A stretch of DNA of 64,000 bases from Eggerthella sp. YY7918 (GTDB lineage Bacteria; Actinomycetota; Coriobacteriia; Coriobacteriales; Eggerthellaceae), in assembly GCF_000270285.1 (NCBI RefSeq), contig NC_015738.1, positions 1,736,001 to 1,800,000 of the forward strand, given 5' to 3'. Made by a program: the position numbers and the translations under genes. This document shows positions 8,606 to 32,834 of the stretch, piece by piece (positions within the stretch are counted from its first letter, which is position 1; each line of letters begins with the position of its first letter). The notes under the pieces were generated by a model, which saw only the letters and a program-made list of their open reading frames with translations, did no database searches and was not told where the DNA came from.

Positions 8606-8668
8606 GTATCTTCTCCCTCGTCAAGGCGCGAATCTACTATGGTTGACCACTATAGGGCATTTTTGTCG

Positions 8669-8711
8669 CAGCGTCTGCATGTCGCCGCTTTGAGGTAAAA
8701 AACAGACGCTG
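8669..8711. repeat. Inverted repeat between pntA and the UvrA-like gene
   Basis: CAGCGTCTG at 8669-8677 and CAGACGCTG at 8703-8711 are exact reverse complements separated by 25 bases. It could be a hairpin or a pair of binding sites. No function is assignable. Confidence 0.35.
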
Positions 8712-8737
8712 AAATGACATTGCAAGCGCACACTATT

Positions 8738-8768
8738 CATTGCGATATCGCAATGGTTTTGCTATACC
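8738..8768 (+). promoter_or_regulatory. Promoter with 18-bp perfect palindrome upstream of the UvrA-like gene
   Basis: CATTGCGATATCGCAATG at 8738-8755 is a perfect palindrome. A -35-like TTGCGA (8740-8745) lies inside it, and TATACC (8763-8768) follows at 17 bases with an upstream TG, an extended -10. The gene starts 37 bases further on. A dimeric repressor bound here would block RNA polymerase. It is not a LexA-type box. Confidence 0.6.
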
Positions 8769-8805
8769 ATGTCAAATAAAGAGGCTGACCTAAGAAAAGA
8801 GAACT

Positions 8806-11334
8806 ATGCGAGATATCGACTCCCATGCGGCAAATACCTTCGACGCGGTGCCTGATCGGATTCAGGTACGGGGAGCGCGGGTGCACAACCTGAAAGAGGT
8901 TGATGTCGACATTCCGCTCAACCGTTTGGTGGGTATTGCCGGCGTATCGGGATCGGGTAAGTCGTCGCTGGCTCTTGGCGTGCTGTATGCCGAAGGATCG
9001 CGGCGCTACTTAGAAGCGCTCTCCACCTACACGCGCCGTCGTCTCTCGCAGGCAGGGCGAGCCGACGTGGACGAAGTGCTGCATGTGCCCGCCGCACTCG
9101 CACTTCACCAGCGGCCAAGTGCGGGCGGCGTGCGCAGCACGTTCGGCACCTCAACAGAACTGCTTAATAGCCTGCGGCTTCTGTTCTCACGGGTGGGCAG
9201 CCATGTGTGCCCAAACGGCCACCGCGTACCGCCGACGCTCGATGTTGCAGCCGAACGACCCATCACCTGCCCTACCTGCGGCGTGGAATTCTTCGGTCCG
9301 GGCGCGGAAGAGCTTGCCTTCAACAGCGACGGAGCCTGTCCCACCTGCGACGGCACAGGTGTGGTGCGCGAGGTGAACGAAGCCGCGCTCGTACCCGACG
9401 AAACGCTTTCCATCGACGAGGGCGCCGTTCTGCCATGGGGAACGCTTATGTGGGATCTCATGAAGCAGGTGGCCGGAGAAATGGGCGTACGCACCGACGT
9501 GCCCTTCAATCAACTTACGCCGCAAGAGCGCGACATCGTGTTTCATGGCCCTGCCGAGAAGAAGCACATCCTGTACAAGGCGAAGAAAACCGATACGTTT
9601 GCTGAAATGGACTTTACGTACTACAACGCCATCTACACGGTAGAAAACGCGTTGTCGAAGGTAAAGGATGAAAAGGGGCTTGCGCGCGTGGCACGGTTCC
9701 TGAAGGAAGGACCCTGCCCCACCTGCCATGGCACGCGACTATCGGAAGCGGCCCGCAACTCGCACGTGTCAGGCATCAACCTTGCCCAAGCAACCGAAAT
9801 GACACTCGGAGAACTTGTGACGTGGGTTGATGCGGCACCTGCAACTCTTCCGGCTGAGCTGCGGCCCATGGCCACAAGCATCTGCGAATCGTTCCAACAC
9901 ACAGCGCGACGGCTTGTGGATTTAGGCCTGAGCTATCTCTCGCTCGATCGCGCAAGCGCGACGCTCTCCACCGGCGAACGCCAGCGCGTGCAGCTGGCGC
10001 GTGCTGTGCGCAATCGTACAACCGGCGTGCTCTATGTGCTGGACGAACCGTCCATTGGCCTGCACCCCGCCAACATCGACGGACTTCTGGAAGTCATGCG
10101 CGATCTGTTGGCCGACGGCAATTCAATCGTCATGGTGGACCATGATACGCGCATCCTCGCAGCTGCCGATCACCTTGTGGAGCTGGGACCGACCGCGGGC
10201 GCAGGCGGCGGACGCGTCATTGCGGAGGGCACGGTGGCCCAGATTGAGGCGAACCCTCACTCGCGCATTGGCGGGTTTCTCTCGGGAACTGAGACGGTAC
10301 GCGTCCGCGAGCCTATTGCACTCAAGCATCTCTTTGACGAAGGGTGCATTCATTTGGAGACCGATGCGCTTCACACGGTAAAGCCGCTCGCAGTTGACAT
10401 CCCGCGTGGACGCCTCACGGTGGTCACCGGCGTATCGGGCTCGGGGAAAACCACACTCGTACTGGAAAGCCTTGTACCTGCACTCATGGCTCACGCTCAC
10501 GACGTATCCCTTCCCGCCCATATTCGTCACCTCAGCGCAGAGGACATCGCACGCGCAAATCTCATCGATGCCTCCCCCATCGGCATCAACGTGCGCTCAA
10601 CCGTCGCCACCTACGCAAATGTACACGACGAGTTGCGACGCGCCTACGCGCGCACAGCCGACGCAAAAGCAGCAGGTCTAAAGGCAGGCGACTTCTCGTA
10701 CAACACCGGCAAATTACGCTGCCCAGTCTGCGATGGCACGGGATCCATCAGCCTTGATGTGCAGTTTTTACCCGACGTGGATATCACCTGCCCCTCCTGT
10801 CATGGCTCGCGCTATGCAGACGCAGCCGAGCATATCCGCCGCCTGCATGCCCATGATGGAGGCAAGAGCTTTTCACTTCCTGAGCTCATGGCGATGAGCG
10901 TAGATGAAGCGCTCCCCGTCACCAGTGATCTCAAGAAGGTCCATACCAAACTGCAAACGCTTCACGACTTAGGCTTGGGATATCTCACCCTTGGCGAAGC
11001 AACCCCCGCACTTTCGGGCGGTGAAGCACAGCGCCTGAAACTGGCCAGCGAGATGGGACGCACGCAAACAGATGCGGTCTTCGTCTTCGACGAACCGACC
11101 ATCGGTCTGCATCCGCTCGACGTGCGCACGCTTTTGGAGGTGTTCCAGCGTCTGGTGGCTCACGGCGCTACCGTCATTGTTATCGAACACGATCTTGATG
11201 TCATCAAAAATGCCGACTACGTGATTGACCTCGGCCCCGGCGGTGGCGAAGAGGGCGGCCGCATCGTAGCCGCCGGAACACCCGCCCAAGTTGCGACCAA
11301 TCCCGAAAGCATCACAGGAAGATACCTTCGCTAG
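8806..11334 (+). CDS. Short UvrA-like ABC ATPase (UvrA2 type)
   Basis: An 842-residue homologue of excinuclease subunit UvrA; canonical UvrA is about 940. Two ABC modules are visible: Walker A GVSGSGKSS (46-54) with signature LSTGERQRVQLARAV, and Walker A GVSGSGKTT with signature LSGGEAQRLKLASEMG. Zinc-module cysteine pairs remain (CPTCGVEF, CPTCDGTG, CPTCHGTR; then CPVCDGTG and CPSCHGSR in the second half). The N-terminal ABC carries a shortened insert, as in UvrA2 proteins, which often lack UvrB docking and are linked to resistance against DNA-damaging compounds. The gene is alone, divergent from pntAB, and behind a palindromic operator. Inducible self-protection is an inference; a repair role independent of UvrB is the alternative. 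Confidence 0.85.
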   Translation: MRDIDSHAANTFDAVPDRIQVRGARVHNLKEVDVDIPLNRLVGIAGVSGSGKSSLALGVLYAEGSRRYLEALSTYTRRRLSQAGRADVDEVLHVPAALALHQRPSAGGVRSTFGTSTELLNSLRLLFSRVGSHVCPNGHRVPPTLDVAAERPITCPTCGVEFFGPGAEELAFNSDGACPTCDGTGVVREVNEAALVPDETLSIDEGAVLPWGTLMWDLMKQVAGEMGVRTDVPFNQLTPQERDIVFHGPAEKKHILYKAKKTDTFAEMDFTYYNAIYTVENALSKVKDEKGLARVARFLKEGPCPTCHGTRLSEAARNSHVSGINLAQATEMTLGELVTWVDAAPATLPAELRPMATSICESFQHTARRLVDLGLSYLSLDRASATLSTGERQRVQLARAVRNRTTGVLYVLDEPSIGLHPANIDGLLEVMRDLLADGNSIVMVDHDTRILAAADHLVELGPTAGAGGGRVIAEGTVAQIEANPHSRIGGFLSGTETVRVREPIALKHLFDEGCIHLETDALHTVKPLAVDIPRGRLTVVTGVSGSGKTTLVLESLVPALMAHAHDVSLPAHIRHLSAEDIARANLIDASPIGINVRSTVATYANVHDELRRAYARTADAKAAGLKAGDFSYNTGKLRCPVCDGTGSISLDVQFLPDVDITCPSCHGSRYADAAEHIRRLHAHDGGKSFSLPELMAMSVDEALPVTSDLKKVHTKLQTLHDLGLGYLTLGEATPALSGGEAQRLKLASEMGRTQTDAVFVFDEPTIGLHPLDVRTLLEVFQRLVAHGATVIVIEHDLDVIKNADYVIDLGPGGGEEGGRIVAAGTPAQVATNPESITGRYLR

Positions 11335-11376
11335 CTGCCGAAACGTACCGAAGTGCAGGAAAGCCGCGCCGACACC

Positions 11377-13563
11377 TTACCCTATCAGCTTTGAGGACTC
11401 CACTTGTTCGACGTACCACGTCATGAATTTGGCGAAGGGTTTGCGCAGCGCAAGGCCGATGATGGCAGCGGGAATAAGGAACAGCGCAAGCAGCCCCATC
11501 TCGATCCAGAAGTCATTGCCATATACGCCAAACATGGCGGCACGCATAGCATTCACCACGTGGGTAGCGGGCAACCAAGGACTTAAAGCCTGGATAAACG
11601 GGGGAAGCAACTGCAAGGGAAACGACCCGCCGCATCCCGTTACCTGAACGATCAGCAAGAGCACGGCAATCGCCTTGCCCAGATTCGCAAATGCGGCCAC
11701 AAGCGCATAAATAAGGAAGGTAAACACCAGGCCTGCCACCCAAAAACACAGCATGAACAGCAGCGGATGAGTTACCTGAACCTGCAAAAAGAGCATGTTG
11801 CCCAAGCCCATAAGCGTGGTTTGCATAAGCGATATGAAGGCCATAACCCCAAAATGGCCCAAAAAGAGCTGACGAGGCTGAGGATCGACCAAACGCTCGC
11901 GCGCTCGGTCCGAGACCGTCGGCTTCATTACCACAAGTATAAGCAGCGACCCGATGAAAAGCGCCAAGGTGGTGTACAGAGGAGCCATAGCCGACCCAAA
12001 ATTCTCAACGGGAAATATCGCCGTGCGCTCAATTGCCACAGGAGCCGCAAGTGCCTTCGAAAGCACCTGCGTATTGGATCCCAACACCTGACGCAGAAGA
12101 TCGCTATCTCCGCTCACAAGTGCCTGGTCAATACCATCGGCAAGTTCTCGCAAGTCATCCGACGATGTATGCAGCGTCTCGGTCACTTCATCGATCTTTT
12201 CCGAAGCGCTTCCCAAAAGCCCGCCGGCCGACCCGGCGGTTTGAGAAAGTCCAGCTCCTGCCGCACGCAGATTTGCCTTGCCTGCATCCACCAAGCCAAC
12301 AAGATCGGATGCCTCGGAAGCGAGTTCTTGCAGGCCTGGTTTAAGGTTGGTGTCGAATTCCGTCTGAAGGTCAGACATACTTTGTTGCGCATCGCTCGCC
12401 AACCGCTTGACCTCGGCGCGCTCGGCCTGCATGTCGGCGTTGCCGGTTTCAAGTTTGTCGGCAGCACTTCTCAGGTTGTCGCTTACACCCTTCAAAAGAG
12501 TAATGCTGGATTGCAGTTGCTTGATCACCTGATCCAAGGCTTGCTCATACCCCGCAGGAACCTTGCCAGAAAGTTGCTCAAGCGCTTCGACAATCGTCTG
12601 ATACTGCGCGACCTGCCCGTCAATCGCTTGAGCTTGTACGCGCATCTGCGCGGCAGCCTCAAGCGACCCGACCTCGGCCGCATCAAAGAGCTGGTCGGCA
12701 GACTCAGACACCGAGGCAAAACCCTGTCCGCTTTGCGCAAGCGCCTGGGAAAGGTCATCGGCAGACTGCCTGAGCGCATCGACCGTGGTGGTAGCCGACG
12801 CGGCACCCTGACTCGCGGTATCGATCAGTCCATCCACTTCACGCTGTGCAGAACCCACCAATTTCAACGAATCGTCTATGAGCGCTTGGGAAGCGTGAGC
12901 CAGCGATGCATACAGATCCAACACCGCGGCCATGCGATCCACCTGATCCCCCATGCTCCGAACATGTTGCGCGAGATCGGCAATCCGACCATTAGCATCG
13001 GCGGTATCGGCATACTGGGTGAGCGATTTGGCTATCCCCAGTGCCACCTCAGACAGCGTTTCGGCAAATACTTCGTTCACCTGATACGATACGCTATCCG
13101 CGCCGCGATCGGTAATCTTGGGCGCAATCGCACTTTTCTTCTCGTTTGCGTAATACACAATGCGTGCATGTTCTGCGTCATCGGAATAGAACGTCAGCAT
13201 GTCTTTGCTAAAACTCTTCGGAATGACAACCGCCGCATAATAGCGGCCGGACTTCGCGCCGTCGATAGCATCGTCTTCGGTGGTAAACACCCAATCGATC
13301 TGGTCGTTTGCCCGCAGCGCAGAGATGACCTGTTCGCCGATATTAAGGCGAAGAGGAACCAAGTCGCTCTCGTATCCTTCATCGACACTTGCCACCGCAA
13401 CACGCAGATTGCCGGTATGCTCAAACACGTTCCAGCAGGCAATGACGTTGTACCAAGCAAAAAGCGACGGCATGACCACCAGCCCAATAACAATGATGGT
13501 GCTCATCACATTGGTAAACAGGCTTTTAAAGTCTGAGCGTATGAGGCGCCCGATATTACTCAT
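11377..13563 (-). CDS. YhgE/Pip family membrane protein (second of tandem pair)
   Basis: A 728-residue membrane protein of the YhgE/Pip family, related in topology to ABC-2 type permeases. One N-terminal membrane segment (IIVIGLVVMPSLFAWYNVIA) is followed by the family block around NLRVAVASVDEGYES. A long alanine- and serine-rich, probably coiled-coil extracytoplasmic region follows (about residues 200-480). About five membrane segments lie at the C-terminus. The ATG at 13563 follows GGGAGG; an upstream in-frame start at 13641 would lie inside the neighbour. It overlaps the upstream paralogue by 8 bases, so the two are probably co-translated. Known members include a phage infection protein and a component linked to toxin secretion; the substrate here is unknown. 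Confidence 0.88.
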   Translation of the reverse strand: MSNIGRLIRSDFKSLFTNVMSTIIVIGLVVMPSLFAWYNVIACWNVFEHTGNLRVAVASVDEGYESDLVPLRLNIGEQVISALRANDQIDWVFTTEDDAIDGAKSGRYYAAVVIPKSFSKDMLTFYSDDAEHARIVYYANEKKSAIAPKITDRGADSVSYQVNEVFAETLSEVALGIAKSLTQYADTADANGRIADLAQHVRSMGDQVDRMAAVLDLYASLAHASQALIDDSLKLVGSAQREVDGLIDTASQGAASATTTVDALRQSADDLSQALAQSGQGFASVSESADQLFDAAEVGSLEAAAQMRVQAQAIDGQVAQYQTIVEALEQLSGKVPAGYEQALDQVIKQLQSSITLLKGVSDNLRSAADKLETGNADMQAERAEVKRLASDAQQSMSDLQTEFDTNLKPGLQELASEASDLVGLVDAGKANLRAAGAGLSQTAGSAGGLLGSASEKIDEVTETLHTSSDDLRELADGIDQALVSGDSDLLRQVLGSNTQVLSKALAAPVAIERTAIFPVENFGSAMAPLYTTLALFIGSLLILVVMKPTVSDRARERLVDPQPRQLFLGHFGVMAFISLMQTTLMGLGNMLFLQVQVTHPLLFMLCFWVAGLVFTFLIYALVAAFANLGKAIAVLLLIVQVTGCGGSFPLQLLPPFIQALSPWLPATHVVNAMRAAMFGVYGNDFWIEMGLLALFLIPAAIIGLALRKPFAKFMTWYVEQVESSKLIG

Positions 13564-16220: not shown

Positions 16221-16249
16221 GTTATTGACACTTTTAGCTGTTTTGTCAA
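16221..16249 (-). promoter_or_regulatory. Putative promoter of the YhgE pair
   Basis: Minus-strand TTGACA (16249-16244), 17-base spacer, AATAAC (16226-16221). The -35 overlaps the stop of the Rieske-type oxidoreductase gene. TTGACA and TGTCAA also form an inverted repeat (16225-16230 and 16244-16249). Confidence 0.45.
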
Positions 16250-17559
16250 CGATCAACCGCAATCGGCTTTGTGGCGGGACCTTCAAGGACGGTGCCCGCA
16301 GCGCTGAAGCGCGAGCCGTGACAGGGACAATCCCAACTGTCCTCCACATCGTTGTGCGCCAGTGTACAGCCCATATGAGAGCAGCGCTTGCCCGGCTTGA
16401 CCAAGTTCGCAGCAGACGTGCCAAGGTTGGAAAACAGGCTCGGGTGCATAAGCGAACGCTCGGGCGAAAAGAGCTCCTGCACAAAACTTTTGCCGGTCGT
16501 GATGAGATCGGTGATGGTTAAAGCGGCCACGTAGGACCCGGTCATCCCCCACTTGTTGAAGCCGGTAGCCACAAACCAGTTCGGGTTTGCGCTGCGGTGA
16601 ATGCCGATGTAAGGCACGCTATCAAGGCTCATGCAATCCTGCGTCGCCCACGCATATCGCTCGACCTGTCCAGGCAGCGCTGCGTTCACATACTGCCGCA
16701 GCTTGGCGTAGCCCTGATCCGGTTTCGGCCCCTCCCCGGTCCGATGACTGCCACCGCCCACCAGCAGATAGTCGCGATACGTGCGGAAGGAATAGCCGCC
16801 CCCGTCGCCGATAAACATGCCATCCACCAGCGGTGCGCCTTCAAGCGCAAGTGAATACGAACGCTCCTGATGCAGCTTCATGAAGTAAAGGCCAGGGATG
16901 TTCACCAGCGGATAGTGGTTTGCAAAAACGATGTAATCTGCCGTGATCGAACCGCGCGGCGTGTGCGCCGTCGTGCCCGACACGTCGGTGACGAAAGTGT
17001 CTTCATAGACCTCGACAAGCGGTGCAAGACCATAGAGCAGCTTAAGGGGATTGAACTGACCCTGATCCTCCATGCCGAGCGCGCCGTTGTTTGCAACCGG
17101 CACGGGTGCTTCAGCGAGCACATGATACGGAATGCCAAGGGTCTCGTAGGCCGCTTGCTCTTGCTCCAGCTGTTCGGTCGTGCCTTCGGCATAGATATAG
17201 GCGCTGCGATCTTCGAAGTCGCAGGGAATCACTTCGCTCAACTGGCGCAGACCTTCGACTGCGGCCTGGTTTGCGGCAAAGTACAAGCGGGCTTTATCCG
17301 CGCCCATTTGGTTGATAAGCTTGTCGTATATAAGGCTGTGCTGCGCGGTTACCTTTGCCGTGGTGTTTTGCGTCACACCCGATCCGACGCGATTTTTCTC
17401 TGCCACCACGCACCGGCATCCCGCCTGCGTCAGCATGGTGGCGCACAGCATTCCCGCCATCCCGGCGCCGATAACCAGCACATCGGTTGTTATGTCGCCA
17501 TCCAAGGTCCGTATCGGCGCATCCTCGCGCTGAGCATACGCTGCCCATACTGAAGTCAT
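16246..17559 (-). CDS. DAO-type FAD-dependent oxidoreductase with C-terminal Rieske [2Fe-2S] domain
   Basis: A 437-residue soluble flavoprotein. The N-terminal dinucleotide fold is clear (VLVIGAGMAGMLCATML near residue 26), followed by the amine-oxidase/DadA-like body. The last about 65 residues form a Rieske domain with both ligand pairs: CSHMGC and CPCHGSRF. This architecture is known in Bacillus YhfW-like proteins; the substrate is undefined. The start was placed at the ATG at 17559 behind AAAGGGCG; a longer frame from 17646 has no ribosome site. No signal peptide is visible, so it is probably cytoplasmic. It stands alone between the YhgE pair and the polymerase operon. Confidence 0.9.
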   Translation of the reverse strand: MTSVWAAYAQREDAPIRTLDGDITTDVLVIGAGMAGMLCATMLTQAGCRCVVAEKNRVGSGVTQNTTAKVTAQHSLIYDKLINQMGADKARLYFAANQAAVEGLRQLSEVIPCDFEDRSAYIYAEGTTEQLEQEQAAYETLGIPYHVLAEAPVPVANNGALGMEDQGQFNPLKLLYGLAPLVEVYEDTFVTDVSGTTAHTPRGSITADYIVFANHYPLVNIPGLYFMKLHQERSYSLALEGAPLVDGMFIGDGGGYSFRTYRDYLLVGGGSHRTGEGPKPDQGYAKLRQYVNAALPGQVERYAWATQDCMSLDSVPYIGIHRSANPNWFVATGFNKWGMTGSYVAALTITDLITTGKSFVQELFSPERSLMHPSLFSNLGTSAANLVKPGKRCSHMGCTLAHNDVEDSWDCPCHGSRFSAAGTVLEGPATKPIAVDR

Positions 17560-17664
17560 GTTCGCCCTTTCGTCCGTATTCGACACGTTTGGGCAAACGA
17601 TACGCCACGATGCAGTACGGATAGCTTGCATCGGGGCAAGCGTCAACCGGCTCTTGCCGGAAAG

Positions 17665-19548: not shown

Positions 19549-21447
19549 CTAACGCACCTCTTGCCCCGTAGCGACCTTGCCCGCAACGCGACCATGGGTG
19601 ATTGCCATACCAATGGAGTTGCCGGCGATCGGGGTCACATACCCCGTACCAAAGCGTCCGCCAAGACAGTTTCCTGCCGCCCAGAGTCCCGGAATCTTCT
19701 CTCCTGCATTATTCAGAACTTGAAGATGGCTGTCGGTGAGCAAGCCGGCAAAGCACACAAGACCGATGCCGCTCCAGCGTTCGTTCTCGAAGAAGGAACC
19801 AATGTAGGGTGGCTCGTCAATGGGGGACATAAACCTGTCATCCTTGCCGAAATCTGCATCGTGCCCCTGTTTGCAAAGTTCGTTGTAACGCTCAATGGAG
19901 GCAACCGCTTCCTTTATCGCCTCATCGGAAAAGCCCATAAAGCCGCAAAGCTCTTCGATGGTATTCGCCTTGTAGACGATATGCGGCTGACGCTCGCACT
20001 CCACGCTGTCGCGACATCTGCCGCCATTGGGGTCGCCCAGTGGCACGTTATCAACGTCTTCCTTAAGCTCCAATACATAGTCCTGCCGACCAGCGTTGGG
20101 AGCACCGAGGTCGATACCGCCCTTTTTCAAAACATCAAACCACTTGCTATCGGAAATAGTACAGATGGGACCGAGCGGTTGTCTGAGGCTATTTGCCCAG
20201 GCGACCGTCGTTGCGGCTTCGTTCATGAAACGCTTTCCCTCGCTGTTGAGCCAGATGTAAGGAACCGTGCCCCACGGAGCGCCCGTCCAGTAATAGTTAA
20301 GGATGGGGCGCGGAAGCGGCTCGATCTCGCCGCCTATCCAGCACGCCATCTTGTGCCCATCGCCTTCACACATGCTTTCAGCCCGAATGTCCTCTGGCCC
20401 CTTGCCTGCGCGCGCCGCAAATTCGGATATCTCAGAAAGAAGCGCCCAAGCCATATCGACATTTCCGCCAAAATCTCCCGTGCAGAGGATAACGCCCGTT
20501 GCGGCATTGTATCGCGTGTACGTTCCGTCCGCGTTCTCGGCGTACACTCCAACCACAGCACCTGAGTCATCGGTGATAAGAACACGAGCACGCTGCTCAT
20601 AGTGCCACTCAGCCCCAAGTTCTTGACCTTTCAAAATGGAGAACTGCTGGATCTCGTCAAAGCGAGAGTAGTCGTTTGAACCGATGCCCGACTCGTCGCC
20701 GATAATGTGGCTGATCTCACCTACCACAGAAGCCGTAGAAGCCCATGACTTAAATCCGCCCTGTATCACAGGGTATTCGACCGGACCGTCTACGACTCCC
20801 GCAGCCTGCGGAACATACATCGAGCTGGGATCGGTAGGACTGACATCCGGATTCGAGCGACTAACTGGCTTGATACGGTCGTCCGGCCAGTTGACCAAGC
20901 TGATCATATGATCGAACGTCTCTCCAGAATTGTAAACAAAGCGCTTGACTATCTCGGCATTGTTCCTGCCCGCGCACCTGAGCATGAACTCATTGACGAT
21001 CTCGCCCTCGTCGTAGGGACCAAATCCCTGGTCGATGAGCCACTTCGAATTAACATGGCCCACGTCCCTGCCCTTAACTTTCCTAAACTTCTCAGACGCG
21101 GATTCAAGAACATGAACCTTCGCTCCTCCTTCCGCGGCAGCAAGAGCAGCTTGGATCCCCGCGTTTCCTCCGCCGCAAACGATGATATCGCCTTCAAAGG
21201 TTTCGGTAACATCGGCATCACTGATCTCGGGAGGTGCGCCCAGCCAGTCTATGCCCGTCTGATAATAGTCATTCGGGTTGCCCGAACCGCTACCTGCCGA
21301 ATCGGTGGTACCTGTATCAGACTTGCTGGGAGTTGCCGAGGGTGCGCAACCCTGCAAAGCGACAGCGCTCGCCAAACCAGCGCTTACGGCCAAGCCGGCT
21401 CCCAAAACGGCGCCGCCCTTTAGTAGATCCCTTCTTGAAACGTCCAT
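19549..21447 (-). CDS. Tat-exported FAD-dependent reductase (flavocytochrome c/fumarate reductase-like), lipoprotein
   Basis: A 632-residue member of the FAD_binding_2 (fumarate reductase/urocanate reductase/3-ketosteroid dehydrogenase) family. The N-terminus carries a twin-arginine signal (SRRDLLK, arginines 5-6) followed by a lipobox, LQGC with Cys34, so it is predicted as a Tat lipoprotein outside the membrane. The FAD fold is IIVCGGGNAGIQAALAAAE; the closing FAD motif is GRFGTGYVTPIAGNSIGMA. No haem motif lies in this chain; electrons must come from a partner, and the nearby NrfD, ferredoxin and cytochrome genes supply candidates. The start at 21447 follows AAAGGGG. Eggerthellaceae encode many such enzymes for diverse organic acceptors; the acceptor is unknown here. 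Confidence 0.9.
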   Translation of the reverse strand: MDVSRRDLLKGGAVLGAGLAVSAGLASAVALQGCAPSATPSKSDTGTTDSAGSGSGNPNDYYQTGIDWLGAPPEISDADVTETFEGDIIVCGGGNAGIQAALAAAEGGAKVHVLESASEKFRKVKGRDVGHVNSKWLIDQGFGPYDEGEIVNEFMLRCAGRNNAEIVKRFVYNSGETFDHMISLVNWPDDRIKPVSRSNPDVSPTDPSSMYVPQAAGVVDGPVEYPVIQGGFKSWASTASVVGEISHIIGDESGIGSNDYSRFDEIQQFSILKGQELGAEWHYEQRARVLITDDSGAVVGVYAENADGTYTRYNAATGVILCTGDFGGNVDMAWALLSEISEFAARAGKGPEDIRAESMCEGDGHKMACWIGGEIEPLPRPILNYYWTGAPWGTVPYIWLNSEGKRFMNEAATTVAWANSLRQPLGPICTISDSKWFDVLKKGGIDLGAPNAGRQDYVLELKEDVDNVPLGDPNGGRCRDSVECERQPHIVYKANTIEELCGFMGFSDEAIKEAVASIERYNELCKQGHDADFGKDDRFMSPIDEPPYIGSFFENERWSGIGLVCFAGLLTDSHLQVLNNAGEKIPGLWAAGNCLGGRFGTGYVTPIAGNSIGMAITHGRVAGKVATGQEVR

Positions 21448-21502
21448 GTTCGCCCCTTTCACCTCTCCTGATGCATCATCGTCGGGTTATAACCTCTATC
21501 GT

Positions 21503-21518
21503 TCTATAGTTATATATC
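21503..21518 (-). promoter_or_regulatory. GntR-type operator candidate upstream of the FAD reductase gene
   Basis: Minus-strand GATATATAACTATAGA. It shares the core ATAnnACTATA with the palindrome at the gntR promoter (23336-23351) and with the site at 21543-21558. It lies 56 bases upstream of the reductase start, downstream of the likely -10. Confidence 0.5.
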
Positions 21519-21531
21519 ACCCGATTCTTGC

Positions 21532-21561
21532 ATAGTAATGCATTATATAGTTCTATGTCAA
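21532..21561 (-). promoter_or_regulatory. Promoter and second operator candidate of the FAD reductase gene
   Basis: Minus-strand TTGACA (21561-21556), 18-base spacer, TACTAT (21537-21532). The operator-like ACATAGAACTATATAA (21558-21543) overlaps the -35 and carries the same ATAnnACTATA core. An internal promoter would let the reductase be transcribed apart from the NrfD and ferredoxin genes. Confidence 0.45.
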
Positions 21562-21568
21562 TATACTT

Positions 21569-22540
21569 TTACACGAGAGCAAGCAACGCCTGCCCCACGT
21601 AATCGGCGCTCGTCCCTGCAAAGAGAAACAGAAATCGCAAGGCGCAATCGCCCACCACGGTGAATAGGGCACCGACGACGAGAATCCTCCACCCCACCCT
21701 GCTTTTCACGAAGAGACTCAGTATCGACGAAAAGAGCGGCACCACAATCCCACCCGCAACCACAAGTCCCCAGAACGGCAAAGCGTACGCGCCGAACACA
21801 AGCAGTTCGGCCGATGCCTCAACAGCGAATTGCTGCGCAGGAAGCGATCCCGATCCGCCTTGAATCATGTTCGTCATGTACAGGAACAGCAGCACGCCCT
21901 CAACTGTTGCTGCGCCAATAACAAGACCCGCAATAAGCCGACGCTTTCTACGTGAAACCTTTTTGGCGCTTTTCGTAAGAGCTACAAGCGCCGTAACGGT
22001 ATTTATCCCCGCTCCAAGCGCACTCACGACGAACAGACACGGCAACAGATATGAATTCCAAAAAGGAACACCCGGTGCCGCCCTGAGCAGCATGCCTGTG
22101 TAAAACGCAACAATAAAAGCCGGTACAAGACCGATAAGCGAGCAAACCTTCAGCACTTTACCGCGCAGACCAGGGTAGGTTTCCCACACGCTGGAAAGCA
22201 GTCGCGACGTCGTTTTCGTTGTCAGAAAAGCGGTAACGAAGAATATGATAAGAGCCGCCGCCGCACTCCATGCGCCCCACGCCATCCACGAGGTGAGATG
22301 ACTGAAACTCCGCCACATGAGCAGCGCCCTGCCGGGATGAACAACTTCAGCGAGCAGCGAAAGCAACCCGAAAGCGATGCACGCCACGCAAACCCAGTAA
22401 GAAATCGCTATCGTTCGCCGATGACGCTTGCGCCGCACCATTCCCAGCAAGGTCGCAGCAATAAACACCCCAGCGCCCAAGCCTCCGAGAAAAAGATAGA
22501 GCGCGACTTGCCATCCCCATGTCGTTTGGAGTTCGATCAT
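21569..22540 (-). CDS. nrfD: NrfD/PsrC-type membrane quinol dehydrogenase subunit
   Basis: A 323-residue polytopic protein with about nine hydrophobic segments. The N-terminus ELQTTWGWQVALYLFLGG leading into GAGVF is the hallmark of NrfD-type subunits, which exchange electrons between the quinone pool and an extracytoplasmic ferredoxin-like subunit. The ATG at 22540 follows GAGGA. It lies 47 bases after the ferredoxin gene and 121 bases before the FAD reductase gene, on the same strand. The expected flow is menaquinol to NrfD to the four-cluster protein to the reductase, directly or through the cytochrome. Whether it conserves energy is not readable from sequence. Confidence 0.9.
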   Translation of the reverse strand: MIELQTTWGWQVALYLFLGGLGAGVFIAATLLGMVRRKRHRRTIAISYWVCVACIAFGLLSLLAEVVHPGRALLMWRSFSHLTSWMAWGAWSAAAALIIFFVTAFLTTKTTSRLLSSVWETYPGLRGKVLKVCSLIGLVPAFIVAFYTGMLLRAAPGVPFWNSYLLPCLFVVSALGAGINTVTALVALTKSAKKVSRRKRRLIAGLVIGAATVEGVLLFLYMTNMIQGGSGSLPAQQFAVEASAELLVFGAYALPFWGLVVAGGIVVPLFSSILSLFVKSRVGWRILVVGALFTVVGDCALRFLFLFAGTSADYVGQALLALV

Positions 22541-22587
22541 GCACGATCCTCGCCGTATTTCGTCATCGAAGGCCTCTCATATCCGAG

Positions 22588-23244
22588 TCACGACAGATAA
22601 AACGATGGTTCAGTAGGAGCCTCCAGCAGGCTGACCTTCCCAACCTTCTTTTCTGCCTGAAGACGGAGATCTTCGAGCTCTCCGTAATGAAGCGCCTTTG
22701 TCGGACAGGCTTGCACGCAATAGGGTTCTTGGTCAGGCTCCACACCGGCACCAAGACAACAATCGCACTTATCCATACCACGCGACGTGTAATTTGGTAT
22801 CCCAAAGGGACAGGACTCGTGACAATACTTGCAGCCGATACAGCGATCTAGGTCCACCACCACAATGCCATCTGCGCGTTTACTTAAAGCGCTAGCTGGG
22901 CAAACAGATACGCAGGCAGGTTGGGCGCACTGCATGCACGAAATCGAGACAAAACGCGATTCGCCCTGATCGAAGTGGTACGAGATAAGTTTTCTGCGCG
23001 CTTCGCAGTCATCGGGGGTGCCGTTCGCCTCTTGGCAGGCCGCCACACACGACGCGCACCCCACGCAGGTTTTGGAATCCATCCAAAAGCCGTATTGAGT
23101 GCGCTTCTTCGGAGGGGCCGTCGAAGAGACGACTGAATCAGAAGGCGAGCAGGAGTAAAGCGTCGCCATAGATGCCGCAGCAGCGCAGGCTGTCGCCACT
23201 GCGGAGCGTCGCGTGACCGAGCGTACCGATTTCATACGATCCAC
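22588..23244 (-). CDS. Four-cluster ferredoxin-type electron-transfer protein (NrfC/DmsB-like), exported
   Basis: A 218-residue protein with 16 cysteines in four groups, each suited to one [4Fe-4S] cluster: CVGCASCVAAC, CMQCAQPACVSVC, CIGCKYCHESC and CDCC paired with CVQAC. The N-terminus contains VTRRSAVATA, a weak twin-arginine-like signal, and a lipobox-like LYSC at about residues 29-32, so it is probably an exported lipoprotein. The GTG at 23244 follows GGAGG at 7 bases; an ATG three codons later and a TTG at 23262 are alternatives. It is the first gene of the nrfCD-reductase operon and is divergent from gntR. Confidence 0.88.
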   Translation of the reverse strand: MDRMKSVRSVTRRSAVATACAAAASMATLYSCSPSDSVVSSTAPPKKRTQYGFWMDSKTCVGCASCVAACQEANGTPDDCEARRKLISYHFDQGESRFVSISCMQCAQPACVSVCPASALSKRADGIVVVDLDRCIGCKYCHESCPFGIPNYTSRGMDKCDCCLGAGVEPDQEPYCVQACPTKALHYGELEDLRLQAEKKVGKVSLLEAPTEPSFYLS

Positions 23245-23335
23245 ACCCGCTCCTCCCCTCAACGAGCGTAGCGCTTCGCGCTTCTTAGATGTGACTTCGC
23301 CCAGAACAGCAGCTCTCTGTTGATTGTTCGTAAGC

Positions 23336-23351
23336 GATATAATACTATATC
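23336..23351 (+). promoter_or_regulatory. GntR autoregulatory operator over the gntR -10
   Basis: GATATAATACTATATC is a palindrome with 6-base arms and a 4-base centre. It covers TATAAT at 23338-23343, the likely -10 of gntR, in the 133-base divergent gap with the ferredoxin gene. It shares the ATAnnACTATA core with the two sites before the reductase gene. Confidence 0.6.
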
Positions 23352-23377
23352 ATTTGCCGATAAAGAAAGGCTTCCTC

Positions 23378-23821
23378 ATGGATCCGTTCGACTCCTATAA
23401 AATCGATAAGAAGAGCGATATCCCGATCTGGGTACAGCTAAAACAGCGTCTCATCTACCTCATTATGTCGGGTTCATACAAACCAGGCGATCAGCTTCCA
23501 ACAGTAAGAGAGCTGGCCGTACAACTTGACATTAACTACCACACCGTGAACAAGGTCTATCACGAGTTGGAAGGCAGCGGCCTTATCGAAGTGCAGGCCG
23601 GACGAGGGTCTCATGTCGCCGATCCGGGCAATTCGAAGTTCGTCACGTACGAAGGCGAGCCCCATATGATAACGGCCGAATACGTCGCTAAGCTTCTGCA
23701 GCTAGGCATGACCGCCGAAGAGGTTGTTCGGATGGTGGCAAATCATCTGGATATCGACATCGCCATCAATTCGCCTTCAGAAAGCAAGCCCGTAAAAGAG
23801 AGATCGCATCGTGTCGGGTAA
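23378..23821 (+). CDS. GntR-family transcriptional regulator, YtrA-like
   Basis: A 147-residue regulator with an N-terminal winged helix (IPIWVQLKQRLIYLIMSG, then GDQLPTVRELAVQLDINYHTVNKVYHEL and GLIEVQAGRGSHV). There is only a short C-terminal helical tail of about 60 residues and no large ligand domain, which is the YtrA layout. The ATG at 23378 follows GAAAGG; an in-frame ATG at 23324 lies upstream of the probable -10. It overlaps the slipin gene by 11 bases. Operator-like sites in front of it and of the reductase gene suggest it senses a signal for this respiratory locus and controls itself. Confidence 0.9.
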   Translation: MDPFDSYKIDKKSDIPIWVQLKQRLIYLIMSGSYKPGDQLPTVRELAVQLDINYHTVNKVYHELEGSGLIEVQAGRGSHVADPGNSKFVTYEGEPHMITAEYVAKLLQLGMTAEEVVRMVANHLDIDIAINSPSESKPVKERSHRVG

Positions 23822-24749
23822 AAAGGGAAAGAAAGCCAAGCAGAGAAACAGGCTGCCCGCCCCAGTGCGAGCCAAGAAACCTCTTGCTTCCCATATGGGC
23901 GTTTGGCTTTTCGAGGCCTTTGCTTTCGTCGTCTCAGCCCTTCCCCTTGGCATGGTGCTGTATCACGGATGGCCCTTCTGGATGGTGCTCATAGCCCTCG
24001 CCTACCTCATCACCGCGCTTTTGACAGTGCACGTCACGCAGCAATGGGAAAAGGTAGTCGTTCTGCGTCTCGGGCGCTTCAACCGAGTGGAAGGACCCGG
24101 CATCTTTTTCACCATTCCCTTCCTTGAATCGGCTGCCCTGCGCGTTGACCAACGCATCATCGTAACGCCGTTTTCTGCGGAAGAGGCGCTTACTGCCGAT
24201 CTGGTTCCCACCGATATCGACGCCGTTTTGTTCTGGATGGTGGTGAACCCCCAAAAGGCCTGGTGCGAAGTTGACAACTACCCGAACGCCGTTTCGTGGT
24301 CGGCGCAAACCGCGCTGCGCGATGCCATCGGACGCATCAACCTTGCCGACATCTCAACGCGGCGCTCTCAGCTCGACCTAGAGCTTCAGGAAACACTCAA
24401 CGACAAAACGAGCGATTGGGGCATCTCGATTCTCTCCGTTGAAATCCGCAACATCCTCATTCCCGAAGATTTGCAGGATGCAATGTCGCGCGAAGCTCAG
24501 GCCCAGCAGGAAAGCAATGCGCGCGTAATCCTTGCTGAAATCGAAAATCAGATCGCAGAGCTCTACGTAGGAGCGGCCGAATTGTACCGCCAAGACGAGA
24601 TTGCACTTCAGATTCGTATGGCAAGCATGGTGAACGAGAGCGTAAAAGAAGGCGGCGGCAACAATCTTATCGTGGTCCCCAGTTCCTTCAGCGAGGGCTT
24701 CAATGCTGGAACCATGAAGGACGTAAAGGACCTTTTTCCAAAAGGGTGA
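23811..24749 (+). CDS. Slipin/stomatin-type SPFH protein
   Basis: A 312-residue membrane-attached SPFH protein. A basic N-terminus (KKGKKAKQRNR) is followed by hydrophobic segments at about residues 30-75, then the SPFH domain starting at EKVVVLRLGRFNRVEGPGIF. The slipin features are LRVDQRIIVTPFSAEEALT, ALRDAIGRINLADIS and AMSREAQAQQESNARVI. The start is a GTG at 23811 inside the end of gntR. Slipins form oligomeric membrane scaffolds and are often paired with NfeD proteases; no NfeD gene is present, and the partner gene here is a cytochrome 3 bases downstream. It may organise the electron-transfer complex in the membrane (inference). Confidence 0.88.
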   Translation: MSGKKGKKAKQRNRLPAPVRAKKPLASHMGVWLFEAFAFVVSALPLGMVLYHGWPFWMVLIALAYLITALLTVHVTQQWEKVVVLRLGRFNRVEGPGIFFTIPFLESAALRVDQRIIVTPFSAEEALTADLVPTDIDAVLFWMVVNPQKAWCEVDNYPNAVSWSAQTALRDAIGRINLADISTRRSQLDLELQETLNDKTSDWGISILSVEIRNILIPEDLQDAMSREAQAQQESNARVILAEIENQIAELYVGAAELYRQDEIALQIRMASMVNESVKEGGGNNLIVVPSSFSEGFNAGTMKDVKDLFPKG

Positions 24750-24752
24750 TCC

Positions 24753-25361
24753 ATGCAAGGAAACGCACGCAGAAAGTCGATGACGCTCTCGGCGGCGGGA
24801 TTCACTTTTTGTCTGTTTGTTGCCCTCGCTTTGGTCGGCTGCCAATCCACCCCCAGCGACAGAGCGCTGATGCCCGGAATTGCAGCAGCCGAGCAGATAT
24901 CGCCCCAGGATTGGAAATGGAGTCCCGATCAAGAATGCGCGCCCTGTCACTCGATTGAGGCGCACACGGCGGCCGCCTCTGCATGTACCGATTTTTCCGA
25001 CGCATCATCAAGCTGCCTGACGTGCCACAACGTTGAGCAAGAGTTGACGGTCGCACACGAAGACATTCGCAACGTAAAGCCTGTTTCCGATCTTCAGCAG
25101 GTTACTGTCGAAAAAGAAGTTTGCACGAGGTGCCACACTATCGCTTCCCTTGCCGAGAGAACGGCTGACAGCGTTGCCCTCGCGGACAACAACGGCGTTA
25201 CCATCAACCCCCACGCATTGCTGAAAACGAAGGGTCATTCCGAGATCGACTGCACCGCCTGCCACACAATGCATGAGAGTTCCGATAGGCTTGAAACAAG
25301 CTCTAAGATGTGTCGAGAGTGCCATCATGCTGACAGTTTTGAATGCGAATCCTGCCACTAA
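24753..25361 (+). CDS. Six-haem c-type cytochrome lipoprotein (cytochrome c3-like)
   Basis: A 202-residue exported lipoprotein: signal peptide with hydrophobic core FCLFVALALVGC and lipobox Cys30. Six CxxCH haem-attachment motifs occur at residues 62-66 (CAPCH), 88-92 (CLTCH), 124-128 (CTRCH), 167-171 (CTACH), 187-191 (CRECH) and 198-202 (CESCH). The last motif ends exactly at the C-terminus, with the stop codon following the histidine. Several more histidines (for example HTMH, HH) could be distal ligands. It follows the slipin gene by 3 bases. It is a likely electron donor to the FAD reductase encoded on the other strand; related FAD reductases in this bacterial group use such separate cytochromes. 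Confidence 0.9.
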   Translation: MQGNARRKSMTLSAAGFTFCLFVALALVGCQSTPSDRALMPGIAAAEQISPQDWKWSPDQECAPCHSIEAHTAAASACTDFSDASSSCLTCHNVEQELTVAHEDIRNVKPVSDLQQVTVEKEVCTRCHTIASLAERTADSVALADNNGVTINPHALLKTKGHSEIDCTACHTMHESSDRLETSSKMCRECHHADSFECESCH

Positions 25362-28893: not shown

Positions 28894-31800
28894 CTAGCGC
28901 TTACCCTCTTCGTCTTCATCCTCGTTGCCGAGCTTCTTTGCAGCAGCCTTCTGCTCCTCGTTGAAGCGGTCGGCGCTCAGCTTCTCGGCATAGGTGGCCT
29001 TCTTGTACTCGGTGGGCTCGTTGATGACCACCTGCGGGAACGGGATGCTGATGTCGTACTTGTCGAACAAGAGCTTCATCTCGCGGTTCAGGTCGCGCTC
29101 CAGCTGGATGCGATCTTTCTCGGCGCACTGTACGATAATGCGAATGTTCACGCTGTTGTCGGCAAGCGCCACCACACCCTTGTAGAAGGGACCGTCGATG
29201 ATGGCGGGCAGACGTTTGCGGATGTTTGGCAGCTCCTGGGACAGGATGTTCTCAACACGTTCAAGTGACTCGCCATATTCGATGCCCACATCACACGACG
29301 CGTAAGAGGTCTCCTTCGTCATGTTGATGACGTTACTGATATCGCTGTTGCGGATAACCTTGATATTCTGCGCTCCGTCCTCCACCTTGGTGGTGCGCAC
29401 GCCAATTTCCACCACCGTGCCGCGCCAATCGCCCACCATGATGATGTCGCCCACGCGGAACTCGCCCTCAAAGATGATGAACAGGCCTGACAGGATGTCA
29501 CTCACCAGCTCTTTCGCGCCGAAGCTGATGGCGATGGACAGGATGCCGGCGCTCGCCAGCAGCGTGGTGGTGTCAACGCCCACCAGCATGAGGCAGTAGT
29601 ACACCATACCGATGATGGTGGCATACTTGATGAAGCTGCCCAGCAGGCGGCACACTGTCTCGCCGCGCGCACCAAGCACGCTTGAGAGCAGGTTCAGCAG
29701 TTTTTGCACCAGCGTGACCACGGTGAGCGCCACACATACAAACATGATGCACGCTGTCAGGGCGAACACGTTCAAGCCGTGCTCCCAATTGCCGCCAAGA
29801 ATGTAGGAGAAGATAGAGCCTGCCCCGAAGATGCGATCTTGGAACACCACCGCCACACATATGGCAATCACCGACACGCCGACGAGCCATTTCACCACCG
29901 TTGCGGTCTTCTGCTCGGCTGTCTTTTCACTCCATTTGAATGAGCGATCAAGCCAGCGGCTGGCAGCCGTCTCGGTCTTAGTGGTGCGCCCGCTCGGCAT
30001 GGTCACGTCTATCATGCGTGCATCAACGTCAACCTGCTCTGTCGGAAGGGGTTCGGTTGCGAGACGCCCACGACCCTCAAAGGCCAGCAGCAAGAAGATC
30101 ACGAACAGGCATACTGCCGCCACACCGCCCGTAGCCAAGGTGAGTGGCACGCGTTCGGCCATAAGTTCGCCTTCCGTACCGGCAACGTAGAGATAGTAGT
30201 TATCCGTTTCCACCGATGACGCATAGTACGTGTTCCCATCGATGGTCAGATAGTCGCTGTAACCGTCTTTGAGCTGGCCTTCTGTCATGCCGTGTTCAAG
30301 CGCATTCTTGCCTGCGAGGCGCTCATCGGGGAAGTACGCAAACGTGTTATCGGCCTTGCTCACCGCAAAAGCGAAGCCGTCAACCCCTGCCTTCACGCTG
30401 CTGAGCACGTTGCCAATCTGCACGCTCTCAAGCACGCTTTCGAGGCGCGTCGGACGAATGCCAATCTGCACAAGACCGTTCACGTTACCGTCAGCATCAT
30501 ACAGCGATACCCCGATGTACTGGCGCAGTTCACCAGAAATCTCGTCGTTCTGCGGCGGCTGCACCACCGAATCAACACCTTGGAGTAGCTTTCTAAACTC
30601 AAACGACTGGTCAGCGGGATCTTCACTCAATGAGAAATTCGTATAGGAAGAGTTTGTCGCCGTCAATGCGCCATTGCTATCCATCACGTAGACGTACTGG
30701 ATCTGCAGCACATCGGCGAGGTTCTGCAAATCATCGCGATTAGCAAGCGCCGGGTTGTGATCGAGCACATAGCCAGCCACGTGCGCCTTACTAAGGTAGC
30801 GCTCGCTGTACTGGTCGGTGAGCGCATCCATACGCTCGTTCGCACGCTGGATGGTCTGCTCCACCTCTGCTGCACGCTCATTGTTCGCCACTGAGGTGGA
30901 CGACAAGGCGAACAGCGTCTGCATGTAGAACGACACACCTAGAATGGCAATGAAGCCCACGAACGAGAACACCGCCGCCTTGCGCCCGATTGCCTTGTTG
31001 TAGCGCAGCGGCCCCACCTGGCGATAGTCCGCTGGGTCGTGGCCGCGCCGCTCGTCCTCGCGCATGACAAAGATGCCATACATAATGACCACGGTCATAA
31101 CCGCGAAAAAGATGAACAGGATGACGCCCACCGTGATGTTGCGCGTGGCAGCCATGTCGCCCTCGGGCACGGCGGCCAAGTAATAGGTGTCGCCGATCAG
31201 CGTAACGCCGCAGTACAACTGCTCGCCAGCAAGCGTCACGTCCGAGAACGCACCGTCCTCAAGAGCCGCTACGTCGATGCCGCCTTCAAGGGCGTCGGTT
31301 CCCACCAGACGGGAATCGGGATGGTACTCGATGAGATAATCCTTGGCCGACACTGCGAACATGAAGCCGTGCTCGCCGATAGTGATGTGCTTGAGCGCAC
31401 TTGCTGTAGAACCTGTTTCCTCGATAAGTTCACGCAGCTCAGCAGGGTTTTGCTCAATTACCACCATCGTAGCATCGTCGATGGGTGCAGCATAGTAACG
31501 CATGAGCCAGTCCTGCTCGGGCAGCTCCACCTCAACCGGAAGTGACGGCTCACCGCTGTCGAACACGGTGCGCAATTCGTTGAAGCGCGAGTATGCGAAG
31601 TTTGCTCTGGTGTCCTGCGCTTGTGCGATCACTGCGCCATCGCGGCCCACCACCATGATGTTGTCCACGCCCAGCAGGTCTTTATACTCCACCATCTTTG
31701 CGTTCGTGACCTCAAAGCCCGCGTCGTTGTGAGCCATAAAAGCAACGCTTTCAGCTTTCGACTGGAATATGGCATCGTAGGTCTCGGTGTTTTGCGCAGC

Positions 31801-31980
31801 GCTTTCGTCGGCCGCCGCCAAAAGATCGGGTAGCGCCTCGGCCTCCTGGCGCATCTCCTGCGTGTAGCTCTCAATCGACAAATTACCCTGCATCGAGAAC
31901 AACAGTGAACCCATGCACGCCATGCTCGCTGCCGCCACTGCCACCAGGACGGCTATCTTGATCTTAAGTTTCGTCGACAT
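28894..31980 (-). CDS. MscS-family channel fused to two extracytoplasmic Cache-like sensor domains
   Basis: A 1028-residue membrane protein of unusual design. The C-terminal third is an MscS channel: pore helix near LLASAGILSIAISFGAKELVSD, then the beta domain with FRVGDIIMVGDWRGTVVEIG and VIRNSDISNVIN. Ahead of it lie two similar modules, each a membrane helix, an about 250-residue extracytoplasmic domain, and a second helix. Both domains carry the Cache-like phrase GFMFAVS/GFAFAVS followed by EYHPDSRLVGTDALEGG or AYFPDERLAGKNALEHG. Cache domains usually bind small ligands in chemoreceptors and kinases. The ATG at 31980 follows AGGGGGA, 8 bases after the stop of a solute-binding protein gene. 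A ligand-gated small-conductance channel is inferred. Confidence 0.88.
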   Translation of the reverse strand: MSTKLKIKIAVLVAVAAASMACMGSLLFSMQGNLSIESYTQEMRQEAEALPDLLAAADESAAQNTETYDAIFQSKAESVAFMAHNDAGFEVTNAKMVEYKDLLGVDNIMVVGRDGAVIAQAQDTRANFAYSRFNELRTVFDSGEPSLPVEVELPEQDWLMRYYAAPIDDATMVVIEQNPAELRELIEETGSTASALKHITIGEHGFMFAVSAKDYLIEYHPDSRLVGTDALEGGIDVAALEDGAFSDVTLAGEQLYCGVTLIGDTYYLAAVPEGDMAATRNITVGVILFIFFAVMTVVIMYGIFVMREDERRGHDPADYRQVGPLRYNKAIGRKAAVFSFVGFIAILGVSFYMQTLFALSSTSVANNERAAEVEQTIQRANERMDALTDQYSERYLSKAHVAGYVLDHNPALANRDDLQNLADVLQIQYVYVMDSNGALTATNSSYTNFSLSEDPADQSFEFRKLLQGVDSVVQPPQNDEISGELRQYIGVSLYDADGNVNGLVQIGIRPTRLESVLESVQIGNVLSSVKAGVDGFAFAVSKADNTFAYFPDERLAGKNALEHGMTEGQLKDGYSDYLTIDGNTYYASSVETDNYYLYVAGTEGELMAERVPLTLATGGVAAVCLFVIFLLLAFEGRGRLATEPLPTEQVDVDARMIDVTMPSGRTTKTETAASRWLDRSFKWSEKTAEQKTATVVKWLVGVSVIAICVAVVFQDRIFGAGSIFSYILGGNWEHGLNVFALTACIMFVCVALTVVTLVQKLLNLLSSVLGARGETVCRLLGSFIKYATIIGMVYYCLMLVGVDTTTLLASAGILSIAISFGAKELVSDILSGLFIIFEGEFRVGDIIMVGDWRGTVVEIGVRTTKVEDGAQNIKVIRNSDISNVINMTKETSYASCDVGIEYGESLERVENILSQELPNIRKRLPAIIDGPFYKGVVALADNSVNIRIIVQCAEKDRIQLERDLNREMKLLFDKYDISIPFPQVVINEPTEYKKATYAEKLSADRFNEEQKAAAKKLGNEDEDEEGKR

Positions 31981-31988
31981 CCGTCCCC

Positions 31989-32834
31989 CTAATTCCACTT
32001 GTCGATGAGTCGAGTCACCGTGCCGTCGTCGAGCATAGCTTGCACGGCCTCGGCGACAGGCTGGCTGAGCGCCGAATCCTTCTGCGTAGCTACACCGTAG
32101 CTTTGCATGTCAATCTGGAAATCGAGCAGGCTGCGATCAAAGTCGTCATAGGTGTGCGCGATACTGCCGTCCATGCAGGCCGCGTCGATGGAACCTTCTT
32201 CCAATCGGTCACTCAGCTCCTGATAGGAGTCCACCTGCACCAGATGGAACGTGTCGAAGGTCACATCCGAGTTGTCATCGTTTGCCTGCAATGCTTCGCC
32301 GTCGGTGAAGCCAGCTTCGGTAAGCTTGATGACCAGCTGTGGAGCCGTGTTCGAGCCTGACATGGTGCCGAAGGTGCGGCCCTTCAACTGGTCGAGACTC
32401 GTGATAAGTGAGCTATCCTCCACCATGATGACAGAGGGATCCTCGTAGTAGGCGGGTGAGAAATCGAAGTTTTTTTCGCGCGATTCGGCGATGGAATAGC
32501 ATGCCACAAGACAGTCAACCTCGCCGTTTAGCAGCATATCTTTGCGGGTTTCCGGCAGAACGGTGACGTATTCCACATCTGCGTAGCCAAGCCGCCGTGC
32601 CAATTCCTCTGCAAGGTCAATCTCCAGACCGTAGTGCTTACCTGTGTCTTCATTCAGGTAGCCAAAGCCCACAACATCACTTCGCACACCCACGCGCAGT
32701 GTGCCCTCAAGAGCGGCATCGCTACTTTTGCCGGTAGTACTGGTGTTTAATCCGCCGCACCCCGCAAGCCCCCACAACACGCACGAAAGCGCAATGGCAA
32801 CGACAAGCGCCATGGCATATCTCGCCTTTTTCAC
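31989..32834 (-). CDS. Extracellular solute-binding lipoprotein, family 3 (amino-acid type)
   Basis: A 281-residue lipoprotein: basic N-terminus, hydrophobic core, and lipobox LAGC. The family 3 fold shows GTLRVGVRSDVVGFGYLN, YGLEIDLAEELARRLG, and DCLVACYSIAESREKNFDFS in order. The GTG at 32834 follows GGGAGGA; an upstream ATG at 32867 is less likely. No ABC permease or ATPase is next to it. Instead it is co-transcribed with the Cache-MscS channel, so it may present a bound ligand to that channel's sensor domains or serve a distant permease. The ligand is probably a polar amino acid or a similar small compound. Confidence 0.9.
   Translation of the reverse strand: MKKARYAMALVVAIALSCVLWGLAGCGGLNTSTTGKSSDAALEGTLRVGVRSDVVGFGYLNEDTGKHYGLEIDLAEELARRLGYADVEYVTVLPETRKDMLLNGEVDCLVACYSIAESREKNFDFSPAYYEDPSVIMVEDSSLITSLDQLKGRTFGTMSGSNTAPQLVIKLTEAGFTDGEALQANDDNSDVTFDTFHLVQVDSYQELSDRLEEGSIDAACMDGSIAHTYDDFDRSLLDFQIDMQSYGVATQKDSALSQPVAEAVQAMLDDGTVTRLIDKWN

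Follow-up and report, generated by a model that had tools for sequence, protein, structure and literature searches.

A six-gene respiratory locus of Eggerthella sp. YY7918 and the companionship of slipin genes with NrfD modules in the Eggerthellaceae

The genome of Eggerthella sp. YY7918, a single contig of 3,123,671 bases, contains about a hundred matches to the FAD_binding_2 family (102 rows), so that one more FAD reductase is ordinary by itself and it is the company of its gene that needs explaining. The window, the stretch of 64,000 nucleotides analysed here (NC_015738.1, positions 1,736,001 to 1,800,000), contains such a gene in a locus of two divergent arms. The minus-strand arm is read in the order ferredoxin, NrfD, FAD reductase, and the plus-strand arm in the order GntR-family regulator, slipin, six-haem cytochrome. 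Do these six genes belong together, and what is the place of a slipin among them? The six genes behave as one co-inherited unit. The locus is a real respiratory unit built of known parts, and its most interesting side is the companionship of slipins with NrfD throughout the family. It is fairly probable, judging from the gene families, that the products form an NrfBCD-like chain at the outward-facing side of the cytoplasmic membrane, with a flavoenzyme at its end and the slipin as a dedicated accessory of NrfD/NrfC modules.

Inheritance of the six genes

Among the 138 Eggerthellaceae genomes surveyed, relatives of the slipin (E <=1e-15) are found in 101, of NrfD (E <=1e-20) in 46 and of the cytochrome (E <=1e-8) in 42. 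The exact order ferredoxin-NrfD-FAD reductase / GntR-slipin-six-haem cytochrome occurs in four: the source genome (G000, locus L090), G062 (L041), G085 (L042) and G040 (L043). These span three genera (GTDB-type labels g1, g13 and g36) and three chromosomal settings; polY and IDH genes flank the locus in both G000 and G040, and the flanks of G062 and G085 differ. The content of the unit has therefore been kept across relocations, and the recurrence of the order in 4 of 138 genomes with differing flanks is more than chance. The original prediction held that the two arms belong together, and both arms, in the full six-gene order, accompany the FAD reductase in all four genomes with an orthologue at least 89% identical (89-90% in G062, G085 and G040); the next relative of the enzyme is 54% identical.

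At third codon positions all six genes have diverged from the window to a similar degree (33-59%). Protein identity to the window is 91-95% for the slipin, 89-90% for the FAD reductase, 67-72% for NrfD and 55-58% for the cytochrome. Because the third-position divergence is similar across the genes and yet the protein identity is highest for the slipin, the latter is strongly constrained.

A further genome, G087, carries the locus with a different terminal enzyme (L044). The GntR regulator, slipin (81% identical), ferredoxin (55%), NrfD (52%) and cytochrome hold the same places as in the window. The FAD reductase gene between the conserved arms, at 10349-12118 of L044 (G087:C30), is unlike that of the window (27% identity over part of the length) and is followed by a second six-haem cytochrome. 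The first 21 bases of the window FAD gene make up a 21-mer that occurs in 4 of the 138 genomes, once each and always at this locus, G087 included; the gene start in G040 deviates from it by substitutions. The simplest reading is that in G087 the reductase would have been replaced in place, with the promoter and the signal start kept. Deep divergence of the reductase in place is a possible alternative.

Slipin genes and their neighbours in the family

The survey of slipin genes covered 18 genera, each represented by one genome, and every one of the 97 slipin places found, 3-9 per genome, was analysed. The 18 genomes gave 117 matches: the 97 slipins, 15 distant SPFH genes (11 used as controls and 4 left out) and 5 fragments, also left out. 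Counts based on open reading frames (ORFs) refer to 96 places (the slipin of L100 was not called, and for L185 the count took a fragment instead of the main gene), and the translated recount refers to 97. The 40 control places consisted of the 11 distant SPFH genes and 29 arbitrary places at round-number coordinates.

In the translated search, a GntR gene lies on the same strand within 700 bp of every slipin (97/97) and of none of the distant SPFH genes (0/11). By ORF calling, NrfD lies within 8 kb of 90 of the 96 slipins. It is within 1 kb in 79 of these 90 cases and on the same strand in 88, and all 90 ORFs match PF03916. No NrfD was found near the control places (0/40; 0/11 distant SPFH, 0/29 arbitrary). 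Fisher's test for the slipin/NrfD association gives 2e-28, a value computed over related loci, which are not independent. A ferredoxin is near 90 of the 96 slipins, a MopB gene near 85 and a TorD-type gene near 46; at the 29 arbitrary places a ferredoxin is near 6 and MopB near 7.

Eleven slipin places are without MopB. Seven intact slipin loci have neither MopB nor the FAD reductase of the window (L103, L111, L125, L137, L151, L159 and L167), and three were tested against Pfam; four genes from these three loci belong to Oxidored_molyb, the sulfite-oxidase/YedY family. The partners at slipin loci are thus mostly enzymes of the DMSO-reductase family, some of the sulfite-oxidase family and, in the window, the FAD reductase. 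The sulfite-oxidase/YedY catalytic genes are located at 8778-11266 of L103, 9065-10684 of L167 and 8793-9833 of L159, with a haem-binding stretch in front in two of these loci.

Slipins matching at E <=1e-50 are found in 73 of 346 Coriobacteriia genomes, of which 69 are Eggerthellaceae, 3 belong to the same order and 1 to the same class. GntR, NrfD and MopB are present at all five slipin loci opened outside the family (5/5, in 3 of the 4 genomes; G371 was left out). After the survey, the idea that the slipin is confined to this locus was given up. The original prediction had regarded the slipin as an unusual addition to the reductase and as a possible scaffold; it turned out to be a family-wide companion of NrfD-anchored reductases, and this tie to NrfD modules is what one would expect of a scaffold or assembly factor.

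Single clusters of this kind are already in print. Eggerthella lenta has, in its Cgr/Cac cluster, the SPFH protein Cac6 together with the FAD reductase Cac4, a pairing like that of the window locus, according to the accessible text of Koppel 2018 (PMC5953540); there, Cgr1 is a cytochrome c3-type protein and Cgr2 a FAD reductase, the function of Cac6 is left open, and, unlike here, NrfD or ferredoxin is not named. In the glucocorticoid 21-dehydroxylation cluster Elen_2451-2454 (McCurry 2024, as described in the accessible part of a comment, PMC11835702), Elen_2454 is likewise an SPFH band 7 protein and has a 4Fe-4S ferredoxin next to it, but the catalytic subunit is a molybdopterin oxidoreductase. 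The accessible portions of PMC12771579, PMC11574389, PMC9734109 and PMC13060105, which deal with these reductases, contain no mention of SPFH proteins. Searches of the open full-text literature, which mostly did not extend to subscription papers, brought up no statement that generalises the GntR-slipin/NrfD association.

The predicted electron path and its regulation

The ORF list of the window has all six genes at the coordinates originally assigned to them (Table 1), and the Pfam families, the six CxxCH motifs and the Cys count agree with the description given then. The ferredoxin and NrfD genes adjoin, with 47 bp between them, and form an NrfCD-type quinol-oxidising module in the broad sense, which is kept in five loci. 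The GntR and slipin genes overlap by 11 bp, and 3 bp separate the slipin from the cytochrome gene. The ferredoxin contains 20 Cys, 18 of them past the signal, which suffices for four [4Fe-4S] clusters; it has TRR in the signal, and its relatives in the PDB include the NrfC protein of 2vpw. The hydrophobic N-terminus of the cytochrome ends in LVGC, a lipobox-like motif. By hydropathy, residues 31-73 of the slipin contain two hydrophobic segments, and its N-terminus has a short basic one, a layout that would fit a cytoplasmic SPFH domain.

Table 1. Features of the six-gene locus, in window coordinates
Feature	Position	Strand	Characteristics
FAD reductase	19549-21447	-	Pfam FAD_binding_2 (E 1.8e-31) and TAT_signal; lipobox-like N-terminus
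FAD reductase upstream region	21448-21568	-	promoter-like TTGACA-18-TACTAT at 21561-21532; ATAGAAC heptamers (GTTCTAT on the + strand) at 21501-21507 and 21550-21556
NrfD-type membrane quinol oxidase subunit (predicted)	21569-22540	-	PF03916 (E 1.8e-31)
NrfC/DmsB-like four-cluster ferredoxin	22588-23244	-	Fer4_11 and other Fer4 families; Tat-like signal
Promoter-like site of the divergent arm	23320-23351	+	TTGATT-17-TACTAT; overlaps perfect inverted repeat GATATA-ATAC-TATATC at 23336-23351
Short GntR-family regulator	23369-23821	+	PF00392 (E 3.4e-16)
Slipin (stomatin-like SPFH protein)	23811-24749	+	Band_7 PF01145 (E 3.5e-36, 125.3 bits against a cut-off of 23.6)
Six-haem lipoprotein cytochrome, NrfB-like	24753-25361	+	Pfam Cytochrom_c3_2 PF14537; six CxxCH

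Two neighbouring genes lie outside the conserved unit or farther along the window. The gene at 16246-17646 on the minus strand, near the locus but outside the unit, encodes a FAD oxidoreductase of the DAO type that has a Rieske domain at its C-terminus (Pfam). The gene at 28894-31998, also on the minus strand, encodes a protein of 1034 amino acids, the C-terminus of which appears by eye to resemble an MscS channel behind large, presumably extracytoplasmic domains.

The families present make a path from quinol to flavin plausible, as had been proposed. NrfD would oxidise menaquinol in the membrane and pass the electrons to the NrfC/DmsB-like four-cluster ferredoxin, which would hand them on to the six-haem lipoprotein cytochrome. 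The cytochrome would in turn reduce the FAD of the reductase, a lipoprotein exported by the Tat route, and the reductase an organic acceptor. From the gene families we infer this path, including the type of quinone, the direction and order of electron flow and the side of the membrane. The Eggerthellaceae are Gram-positive, so that "periplasm" is a loose term for the outer side.

In E. coli NrfABCD, the NrfD quinol oxidase, the four-cluster ferredoxin NrfC and the multihaem NrfB each have a counterpart here by NCBIfam profile. The locus differs from that system in the terminal enzyme, a Tat FAD reductase in place of NrfA, in profile scores far below the cut-offs and in the addition of GntR and the slipin. 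No NrfA multihaem catalytic subunit was found among the locus proteins (ORF list and Pfam), and nitrite reductase was rejected on that ground. A molybdopterin catalytic subunit, which distinguishes complexes of the DMSO-reductase family and is present at 85 of 96 related slipin loci, is likewise absent from the ORFs and Pfam matches of the locus.

The FAD reductase belongs by sequence to the same FAD_binding_2 fold family as Fcc3 and the urocanate reductase UrdA, and shares with them the character of an exported flavoenzyme fed by multiple haems; here, however, the haems are on a separate lipoprotein. In a profile alignment to 1qjd and its variants, made with sequence only, the enzyme has other residues at all four positions that we take to be catalytic in Fcc3 (H365, R402, H504 and R544). 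Its score with TIGR01813 (flavo_cyto_c, NCBIfam) is 89.7 bits, below the cut-off of 285.45. Fumarate reductase was rejected for want of the four residues, and the acceptor is therefore probably not fumarate. A FAD reductase that has a cytochrome as well as a ferredoxin/NrfD module had been considered rare, which is too strong: rows of FAD reductase, cytochrome, ferredoxin and NrfD without a slipin are found at L056 in the source genome and at three other places opened (L057-L059). The row in L056 (G000:C1:2584000-2602000), the second such set of the source genome, is co-directional and occupies 10107-12321 with 8348-10158.

A single promoter serving all six genes is unlikely, since three transcription starts seem to be required. 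Two ATAGAAC-type heptamers, a motif picked after looking, lie upstream of the reductase in 5/5 loci and in none of the five divergent regions. The TTGATTGTTCG...ATA..ATA region of the divergent arm is similar in all five loci. The inverted repeat at 23336-23351, over the -10 element of the GntR arm, is a candidate GntR operator; it is perfect in the window only and not in the four relatives. A by-eye comparison gave no convincing shared GntR operator upstream of the reductase, and no promoter for the ferredoxin-NrfD pair was identified. A promoter-like site of its own, and heptamers that lie upstream of the reductase but not in the divergent region, make it likely that the reductase is under control separate from the arms. 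The expectation that the slipin and cytochrome are not regulated apart from the reductase, which formed part of the original prediction, thus stands only in part.

Alternative readings and the role of the slipin

Several observations weigh against a chain of the proposed kind. The best NCBIfam model for NrfD is the E. coli protein (TIGR03148), at 62.6 bits far below the cut-off of 347.6, and the sole model for the cytochrome is NrfB (PRK11659), at 25.5 bits also far below its cut-off of 184; for the ferredoxin, DmsB comes best and NrfC third (112.9 against 377.6 bits), all below cut-off. Conservation at the locus is lowest for the cytochrome, the G087 counterpart of which is 35% identical. In a stricter translated search NrfD is near 49 of 97 slipins, though Pfam confirmed all 90 of those found as ORFs. 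The reductase apparently has its own promoter, and its expression may therefore be independent of the arms. Relatives of the FAD reductase at 41-52% identity are without NrfD and without a slipin in all 13 places opened (L209-L221), with a ferredoxin and a MopB gene nearby in two. The enzyme family can therefore do without such a chain; enzymes of this type mostly stand by themselves, and the one in the window was recruited to its locus. These solitary homologues and the promoter-like region of the reductase would also suit two separate systems sharing the locus, in which the FAD reductase is fed by the cytochrome and another quinol dehydrogenase and the ferredoxin-NrfD pair serves another enzyme. 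Such a division is improbable: neither the ORFs nor Pfam reveal another catalytic subunit at the locus, the set is together in 4/4 orthologous loci, and in L056-L059 the FAD reductase, cytochrome, ferredoxin and NrfD genes form one co-directional row.

In the favoured NrfBCD-like chain, the slipin, presumably co-translated with the GntR regulator, would most likely form a ring in the membrane and serve to organise, stabilise or quality-control the membrane part. It appears to be tied to the quinol module and to no single catalytic chemistry; since it is found with that module in combination with three different chemistries, the membrane part is probably its client. Resemblance to the stomatin/slipin family extends to the Band_7 domain above cut-off, the N-terminal hydrophobic stretch and the solved stomatins, which match at 1.8e-34 and assemble into large rings, with up to 16 chains per entry and 16 in several. 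The partners are different, being GntR and NrfD/NrfC modules, with no NfeD-type protein among those scanned. It is somewhat unlikely, yet the likeliest of the alternatives, that the slipin does not scaffold a working complex and is instead an assembly or protease-modulating factor, providing quality control of NrfD in the manner of HflK/C or QmcA. The solved relatives include QmcA, the sole NCBIfam matches are models of the HflK/HflC type, below cut-off, and TorD-type chaperone genes are common near slipins (46/96). The stomatin chains, however, match far better than those of HflK/C (1.8e-34 against 3e-8), and no FtsH-like or NfeD-like gene was found by Pfam among the locus proteins scanned, no genome-wide search having been made. 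Least probable of all is a general membrane-stress or housekeeping protein, present here by chance or through selfish spread linked to GntR. Slipins elsewhere have other partners, and GntR-slipin pairs are numerous in the 18 genomes (3-9 analysed in each), but the distant SPFH genes of the family have neither NrfD nor an adjacent GntR (0/11 for both) where slipins nearly always have them, and no other protein of the locus is as well conserved as the slipin.

A broader proposal, put forward tentatively and with slightly less than even confidence, is that the GntR-slipin cassette of the Eggerthellaceae may be a dedicated and catalyst-independent part of NrfD-anchored reductases. The stomatin ring would hold or assemble a quinol-oxidising base that accepts reductases of the DMSO-reductase or sulfite-oxidase family or FAD reductases, as the apparent exchange in G087 would show, and the locus offers what looks like a natural swap of terminal enzymes while the base that delivers the electrons is conserved. 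Eggerthellaceae use many respiratory reductases on drugs, hormones and dietary compounds, and the electron supply of these enzymes is poorly known. The slipin-GntR companion of NrfD modules is a searchable mark for such clusters, and its companionship with NrfD raises a testable role of stomatin-family proteins in bacterial respiration.

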